From contig JAFZWE010000033.1 of the NCBI GenBank assembly GCA_017617445.1, forward strand, positions 1 to 49,468: a stretch of 49,468 nucleotides of DNA, read 5' to 3'. Made by a program: the position numbers and the translations under genes. Below, in pieces: positions 32,577-34,304 of the stretch (the stretch's first letter is position 1; each line of letters starts with the position of its first letter). This stretch comes from Bacteroidales bacterium (lineage in GTDB: Bacteria > Bacteroidota > Bacteroidia > Bacteroidales > WCHB1-69). Below the pieces are notes generated by a model. The model was not told the origin of the DNA and ran no database searches. It saw only the letters and a program-made list of their open reading frames with translations.

Positions 32577-32683
32577 CGTATTATTTTTGGCTTTCCGGAG
32601 TATGGCCGGTATATTTTTCATTTTTTTTCTGTTCATTTCTCATAGTTCCCTCTTTTGTTGTGGGTTATGTGCTGTTTTTTTCT

Positions 32684-32691
32684 TACTTTTG
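32684..32691 (+). promoter_or_regulatory. -7 box (TACTTTTG) of the Ser/Thr kinase gene
   Basis: TACTTTTG fits TAnnTTTG. Predicted initiation near 32697-32700 leaves a leader of only about 11-14 nt before ATG 32711 and argues against the ATG at 32660. Confidence 0.62.
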
Positions 32692-32710
32692 TTCTTTCAA
32701 AATGATTCTT

Positions 32711-34255
32711 ATGAAAAACAGAAACGTATTGAATTACACGCTTTTGCAACTTTTGGGCAAGGGCGGCATGGCCGAAGTGTGGTACGCCGAAAACGAGATC
32801 GGCAATGTGTCCGCGGTGAAAATCCTCAATGCCGACCTTTCGCTCAACGAGAGCATTGTGGAGCGTTTCCGCAACGAGGCCCGCGTCACCGTGAAACTGA
32901 AGCACCCCAACATCCGCCAAGTGTACGACTATGCCGTTCTTGACGGACGCCCCTGCATGGTAATGGAGTATCTGGAAGGCGAGGATCTCAGCTCCCGCAT
33001 GAAGCATGGCGAGCGCTTCACCGGCGAACAGCTCAAAAAGTGGTGGAACCAGTTGGCCTCCGCCCTCAACTACACCCATGCACAGGGCATAGTGCACCGC
33101 GACATCAAGCCCTCCAACATTTTCATTGACCGGGAGAATAATGTGAAGCTGCTGGATTTCGGCATCGCGAAGGTGCAGGAGGGTATCACCATGACCCAGA
33201 CTGGCGACTCCATGGGCACGCTGATGTACATGAGTCCCGAGCAGGTGCGCGACAGCAAGCACATCGACCATAAAACTGACCTCTACTCCTTGGCGGTGAC
33301 CTTCGTGCATTTGCTGACCGGCAATGTCCCTTACGACCGCGACACCACCGACGACTATGAGATACGGAAGAATATTGTGGAAACACCGCTTGTGATGACG
33401 GGCGTGCCATCCCAATGGCAGAATTTCCTGCACCCCTATTTGGCCAAGAACCCTGCTGAGCGTCCCGCGCTGACGGAGTTCTCCGTGGAAGCCGGCTCCA
33501 GCGGTTATGTTCCGCCGGTGGCCCCGCCAGTTCCCGCCTCGGAGGAGACCGTGGTGGGCGGTGTCATGTCTTCTTCCGAAGAAACCATTGTGGGAAATGC
33601 GAAAACTCCACAAGTCAATGTCAATCAAAAGAATGTCAAAACTTCCGCCCCGCAGAAACCCAAGAAAAAGCGCAAGGGGTTGATTATCGGAATTGTTGTG
33701 GCTGTGTTGTTGCTGGGAGCCATTTACATTTTTTGCAATTCTTTTCATGTCTTCGGCTTTGTGCCCATGTGGGTGCTGGCAGGTGTAGTGGTATTGGTGG
33801 GTACTATGGTTTGGCTAAATAAGAAGAAAGTGCCTGTAGATCAGACGATGGAATATGTGGACTTGGGTCTGCCAAGTGGCACATTGTGGAGGGGAATGAA
33901 TGAGGGTGGTGACCATTTCTACAGCTATGATGAGGCAATGAGCATATATGGTAATCAACTTCCCACCACGGAGCAATGGGTGGAATTAGTAGAATCCTGT
34001 ACATGGAAATGGACGGATGGGGGCTACAATGTAAAAGGTCCCAACGGCCACTGCATCTTTCTGCCCACTGCGGGCGTCCGCATTTACAATGGCAATGACG
34101 GTGAGTACGTCGTGGGATCCGGCGGCAACTATTGGTCGTCCACTCCCTACGGTTCAGAGTACGCGTGGGCCCTCGGCTTCAATTCGGGCGGCCATGGCGT
34201 GTACAGCCACGACCGCTGCGACGGTCTCTCTGTGCGGCTCGTCCAAGGTAAATGA
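32711..34255 (+). CDS. membrane Ser/Thr protein kinase fused to a C-terminal FISUMP / C-type-lectin-like domain
   Basis: The product is 514 residues. The Hanks kinase domain (about 8-260) has the Gly loop GKGGMAEVW (16-24), Lys37 in SAVKIL, HRDIKPSN (129-136), DFG (149-151) and SPE (175-177), so it should be active. A Pro/Ser linker with two EET(V/I)VG motifs, possible phospho-Thr sites, leads to two membrane helices (about 323-343 and 352-369) flanked by KPKKKRK and NKKK, which puts both ends in the cytoplasm. Residues 382-514 are a FISUMP-type domain: YVDLGLPSGTLW, LPTTEQWVELV, GNYWSSTPY and the final LSVRLVQ. This C-terminal layout is that of diversity-generating-retroelement variable proteins. 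ATG 32702 is an alternative start. Confidence 0.88.
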   Translation: MKNRNVLNYTLLQLLGKGGMAEVWYAENEIGNVSAVKILNADLSLNESIVERFRNEARVTVKLKHPNIRQVYDYAVLDGRPCMVMEYLEGEDLSSRMKHGERFTGEQLKKWWNQLASALNYTHAQGIVHRDIKPSNIFIDRENNVKLLDFGIAKVQEGITMTQTGDSMGTLMYMSPEQVRDSKHIDHKTDLYSLAVTFVHLLTGNVPYDRDTTDDYEIRKNIVETPLVMTGVPSQWQNFLHPYLAKNPAERPALTEFSVEAGSSGYVPPVAPPVPASEETVVGGVMSSSEETIVGNAKTPQVNVNQKNVKTSAPQKPKKKRKGLIIGIVVAVLLLGAIYIFCNSFHVFGFVPMWVLAGVVVLVGTMVWLNKKKVPVDQTMEYVDLGLPSGTLWRGMNEGGDHFYSYDEAMSIYGNQLPTTEQWVELVESCTWKWTDGGYNVKGPNGHCIFLPTAGVRIYNGNDGEYVVGSGGNYWSSTPYGSEYAWALGFNSGGHGVYSHDRCDGLSVRLVQGK

Positions 34256-34278
34256 TTGCGCGCGCCAGGGCGCAATCA
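34253..34278. repeat. 9-bp palindrome at the stop codon of the kinase gene
   Basis: TGATTGCGC (34253-34261) and GCGCAATCA (34270-34278) are perfect inverted repeats with an 8-nt loop GCGCCAGG. The arm begins at the TGA stop. No T-run follows, so it is not a typical terminator. Palindromes just 3' of variable regions are a known feature of diversity-generating retroelement targets. Confidence 0.8.
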
Positions 34279-34304
34279 CAAGACATTGAAATATGGCTTG
34301 GAGG

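Follow-up and report, generated by a model that had tools for sequence, protein, structure and literature searches.

A Ser/Thr kinase with a lectin-like C-terminus as a probable remote target of a diversity-generating retroelement in the Bacteroidales

The best known targets of diversity-generating retroelements (DGRs) are phage tail fibres and surface adhesins. In the DGR of Bordetella phage BPP-1 a hairpin follows the variable repeat (VR) and the target, which has a lectin fold, is a single phage protein (Mtd) diversified in cis, unlike the kinase described here. The 3' end of a VR is called the IMH. This name is also found in the available part of PMC6642488, the background for the features which the BPP-1 system shares with the present one, i.e. 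a reverse transcriptase (RT), a template repeat (TR), a VR with an IMH end and Avd.

Kinase-lectin targets and remote targets of DGRs have been described in cyanobacteria, where autoinhibition of the kinase by its sensor was proposed (PMC7517822). The cyanobacterial kinase-CLec proteins and the kinase described here both have an N-terminal Hanks-type kinase, a lectin-type VR at the 3' end and several dispersed paralogues, and in both cases the remote targets were recognised by their identity to the TR, over 50% in cyanobacteria and 78% here (PMC7517822). The two systems differ in that most kinases of the present genome have a predicted membrane stretch whereas most of the cyanobacterial ones are cytosolic (PMC7517822), in that the host is not a cyanobacterium but, judging from the relatives of its RT, probably a member of the Bacteroidales, and in that two relatives are found in DGR loci together with FHA and caspase genes, one of them also with PP2C.

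For Thiohalocapsa PB-PSB1 the available part of PMC10907252 describes DGR-diversified conflict systems, with Pkinase and TIR among the target domains in a legend, as well as incomplete loci and remote targets, diversified at all but one, and it explores action in trans; unlike the kinases studied here these systems centre, in that part, on STAND NTPase and MoxR/vWA ternary systems, and the words 'FHA' and 'phosphatase' have no occurrence in the main text. Within the Bacteroidales, the DGRs of Bacteroides diversify tip pilins and not kinases (Macadangdang et al., available part of PMC12632263), and the word 'kinase' is absent from the main text of Roux 2021 (PMC8144416). The available parts of two papers on conflict systems (PMC7159879 and PMC8195603) mention kinase, FHA, caspase and DGR parts, and the former a kinase-PP2C-vWA theme in actinobacteria; a cluster of FHA, PP2C, caspase and kinase is described in neither of these parts. 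No title or abstract among the matches listed concerned DGR-diversified kinases in Bacteroidales, subscription papers and supplements lying outside the scope of the search. Kinase-lectin DGR targets are thus already known from cyanobacteria and Thiohalocapsa; in the literature searched, neither their occurrence in Bacteroidales nor the cluster was found.

The kinase, its C-terminal domain and the hairpin behind it

The window, i.e. the whole stretch of DNA that was analysed, comprises 49,468 nucleotides and is contig C49 of the genome G000 (2.07 Mb in 51 contigs, 80% complete). The following features were identified:

32711..34255, + strand: Hanks-type Ser/Thr kinase with a C-terminal lectin-like (Lcl_C / Fib_succ_major-like) domain (translation, Pkinase; frame open from 32660)
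32735..33478, + strand: kinase catalytic domain, residues 26-273, catalytic motifs intact (Pkinase, E 4.9e-52)
33680..33799, + strand: two adjacent hydrophobic stretches, residues 341-359 and 362-380 (Kyte-Doolittle scan)
33845..34252, + strand: C-terminal lectin-like domain, approximately residues 396-531 (alignment; Lcl_C and Fib_succ_major matches)
34059..34247, + strand: putative VR, 78% identical to the TR at G000:C37:2004-2186 on the minus strand (25 of 37 mismatches at template A)
34232..34247, + strand: IMH-like 3' end of the VR, one base off the TR, C for T (comparison with the TR)
34253..34278, + strand: perfect hairpin with 9-base arms and an 8-base loop, beginning at the stop codon (palindrome search, folding)

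The frame 32660-34255 (+) is open and translates into 531 residues, and the start of the protein is probably at 32711 (MKNRNVLNY) since its paralogues on C37, C15, C2 and C45 begin MQNxxVLNY. Inspection of the sequence identified the kinase motifs GKGGMAEV, AVK, HRDIKPSN and DFG. Kyte-Doolittle scanning of 13 other kinases of G000 gave one hydrophobic stretch in 10 of them. If both stretches of the window kinase cross the membrane its sensor would face the cytoplasm, unlike those of the single-span sisters.

The sensor domain matches Lcl_C (E 2.4e-4) and Fib_succ_major (E 0.018), which we take to be lectin-fold families, in both cases weakly and under the curated cut-off, and a profile search of solved structures with this domain gave no match at E up to 0.1; the domain is called lectin-like here on the basis of these weak family matches. 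When the protein was compared with the anti-phage kinases PD-T4-6, Mad6 and Stk2 the best match was PD-T4-6 (E 1e-74, residues 23-270), and the best 25 of the 35 matches leave the sensor uncovered since all of them end by residue 359; a match in the kinase domain says little about function. In its own neighbourhood the window kinase stands alone among unrelated genes.

The protein ends in GNYWSSTPYGSEYAWALGFNSGGHGVYSHDRCDGLSVRLVQGK directly before the stop codon, i.e. in ...LSVRLVQGK, and the first three bases of the palindrome TGATTGCGC-N8-GCGCAATCA are the stop codon itself. Its fold has an energy of -11.7 kcal/mol, whereas shuffled sequences average -4.88 (z -4.18; 0 of 200 shuffles fold as well). 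The palindrome was also considered as a terminator and rejected as such, being without a T run and without a match in the terminator scan. Allowing up to three mismatches, the palindrome pattern occurs at four sites in G000, all four at VR-type tails, and its reversed control at none, which argues that the hairpin is not due to chance. The VR tail on C15 has the same arms but was missed by this pattern because its loop has 6 bases. Of the 104 genomes of the family, three have a fuller pattern of tail plus hairpin (four times in G000, once each in G005 and G008; control 0 in every genome), the near-invariant VR end being GTGCGGCTyGTCCAAGG. In G005 (L104:5228-6121) the same tail and hairpin end a CsgG-like protein with a signal-type N-terminus, and in G008 (L105:5051-6160) a TIR-membrane-lectin protein (TIR_2, E 1e-19) carries the VR tail and hairpin of the window kinase. 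Ten VR tails of other DGRs were viewed by eye: hairpins with different stems follow those of L026, L027, L028 and L030, the one at L025 is shorter, and neither L039 nor the four kinase VR tails in L032 and L043 showed a clear hairpin.

A sequence-only reading of this DNA had proposed a kinase with a C-terminal lectin-like domain, a palindrome just downstream and a window free of RT and TR, and all three hold: the sole RVT_1 match found in the genome is on C37, and the only match to the VR on C49 is the query itself. The LSVRLVQ motif that it reported is also present but is not, as had been stated, the extreme C-terminus, the last residues being ...LVQGK.

The retroelement on contig C37 and the A-site signature

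When G000 was searched with positions 33840-34300, strong matches were obtained on C37 (two), C15, C4 and C2. On the minus strand of C37, a contig of 5.7 kb, a kinase with its own VR is followed by the TR (2004-2186), the RT (887-1990) and an accessory gene (108-995). The RT (RVT_1, E 3.9e-16; PHROG RT family, E 3.8e-93) contains IGDLTSQ at 212 and YVDD at 244, the IGxxxSQ type of motif being a label of DGR RTs, and among solved structures its closest relative is 8ub7 (E 6.6e-32), presumably the DGR enzyme of the Bordetella phage. In the accessory protein (L017:108-995, -) residues 173-285 match an Avd PHROG (E 1.3e-10), and the Avd models of NCBIfam and Pfam match under their cut-offs. A trace of MutS domain I (E 0.031, under cut-off) precedes the Avd part, and the N-terminal part is shared with the accessory protein of L043 (37% over 90 residues).

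Altogether 71 relatives of the RT were found and A-biased repeat pairs were seen in 52 of the 71 loci, a count set by the threshold of the script and including at least one locus (L063) that is merely a palindrome. The four closest named relatives (56-70% identity) belong to Bacteroidales whose assemblies come from goat, reindeer, roe deer and red deer. A phage origin of the RT was considered and rejected, the best segments of its 23 IMG/VR relatives being 33-46% identical and a kinase match being found in 0 of the 23 loci as fetched. In the same-genus genome G001 there is an RT at 45%, and its locus (9 kb) showed neither a same-strand A-biased pair nor a kinase match. The similar G+C content (0.518 for C37, 0.536 for 10 kb of C2 and 0.502 for the window) and the presence of the window-kinase family on several contigs of 50-123 kb in G000 argue against contamination, though not decisively in the case of C37.

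In G000 there are 13 kinases, that of the window included, which match the window protein at E below 1e-100, while the other 12 genomes of the genus contain no kinase near that value; four of them have kinase-domain matches at about E 1e-21 and the rest, at E 1e-20, lectin-only matches or none. The C-termini of the G000 kinases are lectin-like (C49, C37, C4, C32), Fib_succ_major (C2, one on C29), FGE-sulfatase (one on C15, C11) or of other types, and a second kinase lineage on C15 likewise has a VR with hairpin. The FGE-sulfatase-type domain, which ends the family members L018:5834-7843 (C15) and L154:855-2537 (C11), is a fold used by other DGR targets.

A second DGR unit is located on C2, a contig of 61 kb (G000:C2:55776-58587; L020 5777-8588), and consists of a kinase with a Fib_succ_major VR and a distinct N-rich TR, 30 of the 32 mismatches of this pair being at A (p 2e-17). 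Its 133-residue frame matches the C37 accessory protein in the N-terminal part of the latter (33% over 105 residues, E 2e-12); the Avd part is missing, and the frame continues into a first-family VR tail with hairpin. No RT was found beside this unit. The Fib_succ_major-like ends of L118:912-3740 (C5) and L119:1627-2430 (C2) match the second TR with 74-75% identity, that of L119 over 80 bases, and these may be further remote targets.

When the VR of the C37 kinase was compared with the TR, all 19 mismatches were at template A (in the codon alignment 19/48 A sites against 0/132 others, p 5e-13). The window VR shows 37 mismatches, 25 of them at A, so that 25/48 A sites and 12/132 other sites are changed, together with a 6-base insertion; slightly different codon alignments give 26/48 against 14/132 (Fisher p 4.5e-9) and 25/48 against 15/132 (p 4e-8). 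The differences of the window VR are thus not confined to template A, the enrichment being strong but not exclusive, and 7 of its 12 non-A differences are in third positions, 5 of these being silent. In the other VRs the mismatches at A number 24/33 (C15), 25/52 (C4), 23/44 (G005) and 22/42 (G008).

A DGR alters both A of an AAY codon and keeps the third base, which ordinary divergence does not. The third base was therefore scored in those AAY codons of the TR whose VR counterparts differ in the first two bases. It was kept in 12/15 such codons of the window VR, 14/14 on C37, 14/15 on C15, 12/16 on C4, 12/13 in G005 and 11/13 in G008 (75/86 in sum), and in 2/14 to 9/17 codons each (65/190 in total) of 12 hairpin-less lectin paralogues from the G000 species and sister species. 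Compared with these controls, p is 6.6e-4 for the window and 2.9e-17 for the six hairpin VRs, treating codons as independent and ignoring relatedness. The division by hairpin is not arbitrary, because the longest inverted repeat within 60 bases from the stop splits the two groups cleanly, with arms of 8-9 bases in the six VRs and of 3-5 bases in the twelve paralogues. Among codons with a change in the first or second base, the third base was also changed in 35/70 within the kinase halves of the window and C37 proteins and in 4/24 within their VRs.

Of the features by which a DGR is recognised, an RT, A-directed TR/VR pairs in cis (C37, C2), VRs at 3' ends with an IMH-like end and hairpin, and an Avd accessory protein were found in G000. 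As in the remote kinase-CLec targets, a Hanks kinase with an intact active site and a C-terminal VR (C49) is separated from the RT (C37). Because the C37 DGR is in the same genome, the differences are biased to A, third bases are retained and the hairpin is confined to VR tails, it is very probable that the C-terminus of the window kinase is a DGR VR and that the gene is targeted remotely (in trans) by the DGR family to which the RT, the Avd-like accessory protein and the TR on C37 belong.

Alternative origins of the variable repeat

With 12 of its 37 differences at non-A positions and the 6-base insertion, the window VR was not copied recently from the C37 TR. The DGR itself looks recently active, as the number of non-A differences is only 9 in the C15 VR and zero in that of C37. 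Comparison with the TR points to a window VR that was diversified in its history rather than demonstrably today, and its present targeting is given about even odds. The VR may accordingly be a frozen variant, made by this DGR family in a gene that has since ceased to be a target and now drifts as ordinary genes do, which we regard as a serious possibility somewhat short of an even chance. The non-A and silent differences and the insertion are what such drift would leave, two same-genus species (G008 among them) bear the same VR tail and hairpin and gave no RT match at E 1e-10, and a remnant VR without a nearby RT is known from Nostoc (PMC7517822). The reading frame, the near-invariant 3' end and the perfect hairpin are nevertheless all intact, and the low non-A counts on C15 and C37 also speak against a family at rest.

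The window kinase may also be served not by the C37 TR but by a second, close TR lying in the part of the genome that is absent from the assembly, a plausible reading about which we are rather doubtful. The tails of the window, of C4 and of the C2 remnant have CTCGTCC and those of C37 and C15 CTTGTCC, two of the twelve non-A differences (34076 and 34094) face an A in the TR of L025, a close relative, and the unit on C2 demonstrates that a second, distinct TR exists; no TR of the window type is present, however, in the assembled part of G000.

The tail, the hairpin and about 20 further bases are common to C49, C37 and C4, and on C2 a bare tail with hairpin runs into the accessory-like gene, from which it follows that the cassette has moved as DNA. 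Gene conversion between paralogues, instead of retrohoming, could in this way have spread the VR and its tail among the kinases, but conversion neither confines changes to template A nor keeps third bases, and the A-only TR/VR pair on C37 speaks against it as the sole cause; we consider it improbable as a replacement for retrohoming, with which it may coexist.

That the domain is an ordinary FISUMP or lectin domain, VR-like in its N/G/Y/D-rich face by composition or relaxed selection only, is very improbable: lectin paralogues are many in the genus and the hairpin-less ones are partly A-enriched (A-share of mismatches 0.27-0.41, p below 0.003 in 5 of 12), so that A enrichment alone is insufficient as proof, but they have changed 47-66 of 126-132 non-A sites and mostly lost the third base, against 12-15 of 132 and mostly kept in the window domain, and the hairpin accompanies VR tails only.

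By the same comparison with the 12 hairpin-less paralogues, the caveat of the sequence-only reading that ordinary FISUMP domains share these motifs was rejected for the window domain. Its suggestion of a DGR target is supported by the TR, the IGxxxSQ-type RT and the Avd-like protein on C37 and by the third bases kept in the window VR. A genome without TR or DGR-type RT, which it had named as the finding that would speak against this, is not what was observed, and the near-copy that it expected beside a DGR RT does exist on C37, although the two copies differ at more than template A.

FHA, PP2C and caspase neighbourhoods and a proposed pathway

A sample of 29 target frames (27 loci) was chosen from the 52 loci with repeat pairs, leaving out frames cut by contig ends and the Bacilli loci grouped around L074-L095, although L056, which was kept, also bears a Bacilli label; 4 of these 29 frames are kinases, two each in L032 and L043. 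Close members of the window-kinase family (E below 1e-100) were found in 2 of 10 RT-bearing genomes chosen from the 71 loci, and all four members lie inside DGR loci. The DGR locus L043 also contains two FHA proteins, a PP2C and a caspase-type protease, the last immediately preceding a kinase, and in L032 a caspase immediately precedes a kinase and is accompanied by a caspase fragment and an FHA protein.

Among 393 genomes drawn from the order, five contain the window-kinase family at E at most 1e-85 (G000, G139, G312, G450 and G458), the matches in G450 and G458 being identical in place and score to those in the genomes of L032 and L043. The link of the kinase to a DGR locus, with FHA and caspase genes, is thus seen in 2 of the 4 other Bacteroidales genomes with this family. 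In G312 the order is X-FHA-kinase-kinase-PP2C-caspase-FHA-kinase, and in G139 FHA-X-FHA-PP2C is found together with two kinases and without a caspase match; the cluster DNA of G312 (19 kb) and G139 (18 kb) contains no RT match and no A-biased repeat pair.

G000 has a corresponding cluster at C29:83927-90535 (L200 2928-9536) with genes for FHA, an uncharacterised protein X, FHA/zinc ribbon, PP2C, caspase and kinase on one strand, of which the FHA, PP2C and caspase genes have Pfam support. Each gene is homologous to its counterpart in L043 (32-66% identity), and the caspase is the only one found in G000. The DGR of G000 (C37) is on a different contig from this cluster, which has no DGR beside it. 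Another phospho-signalling cluster is present at G000:C31:34089-43679, where five FHA domains lie beside two more distant kinases.

Support at the level of sequence comes from the TR, the RT, the VR signature, the hairpin, the kinase motifs and the cluster with its DGR link in two relatives. Homing in trans, ligand sensing, the order of signalling and any role in defence are what we infer from these. A template RNA with AAY codons would be copied by the error-prone RT, and the A-mutagenised cDNA would replace the VR, recognition occurring through the near-invariant end and the hairpin at the stop codon. Residues of the lectin-like sensor would thereby be altered while the kinase half stays constant, and the membrane-bound kinase would start Ser/Thr phosphorylation once its sensor, in the variant present at the time, has bound a ligand. 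FHA proteins would probably read this signal and PP2C reverse it, and it may control the caspase-like protease of the related C29 cluster; this pathway is proposed from the neighbours in the relatives and on C29, not in the window.

A testable case for signalling sensors retuned by targeted hypermutation in bacteria is offered by a DGR that feeds a family of receptor kinases in the membrane and whose relatives have loci with FHA, PP2C and caspase genes. The paralogues with and without hairpin within one genus form a built-in set of controls, and the VR tail with its hairpin is a portable marker for locating remote DGR targets. The findings suggest a receptor system of a gut bacterium that rewrites its own sensors, somewhat like immune receptors. 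Tentatively, and with more doubt than conviction, some Bacteroidales may possess a self-diversifying receptor-kinase system for immunity or kin recognition, in which a DGR would rewrite, in trans, a portable lectin VR cassette borne by many membrane kinases (in a sister species by a TIR protein), whose signals would pass through FHA adaptors and PP2C to a caspase-like executioner. If true, such a system would parallel, in bacteria, the immune receptors that undergo somatic diversification, and its pathway would run through a kinase and a caspase.
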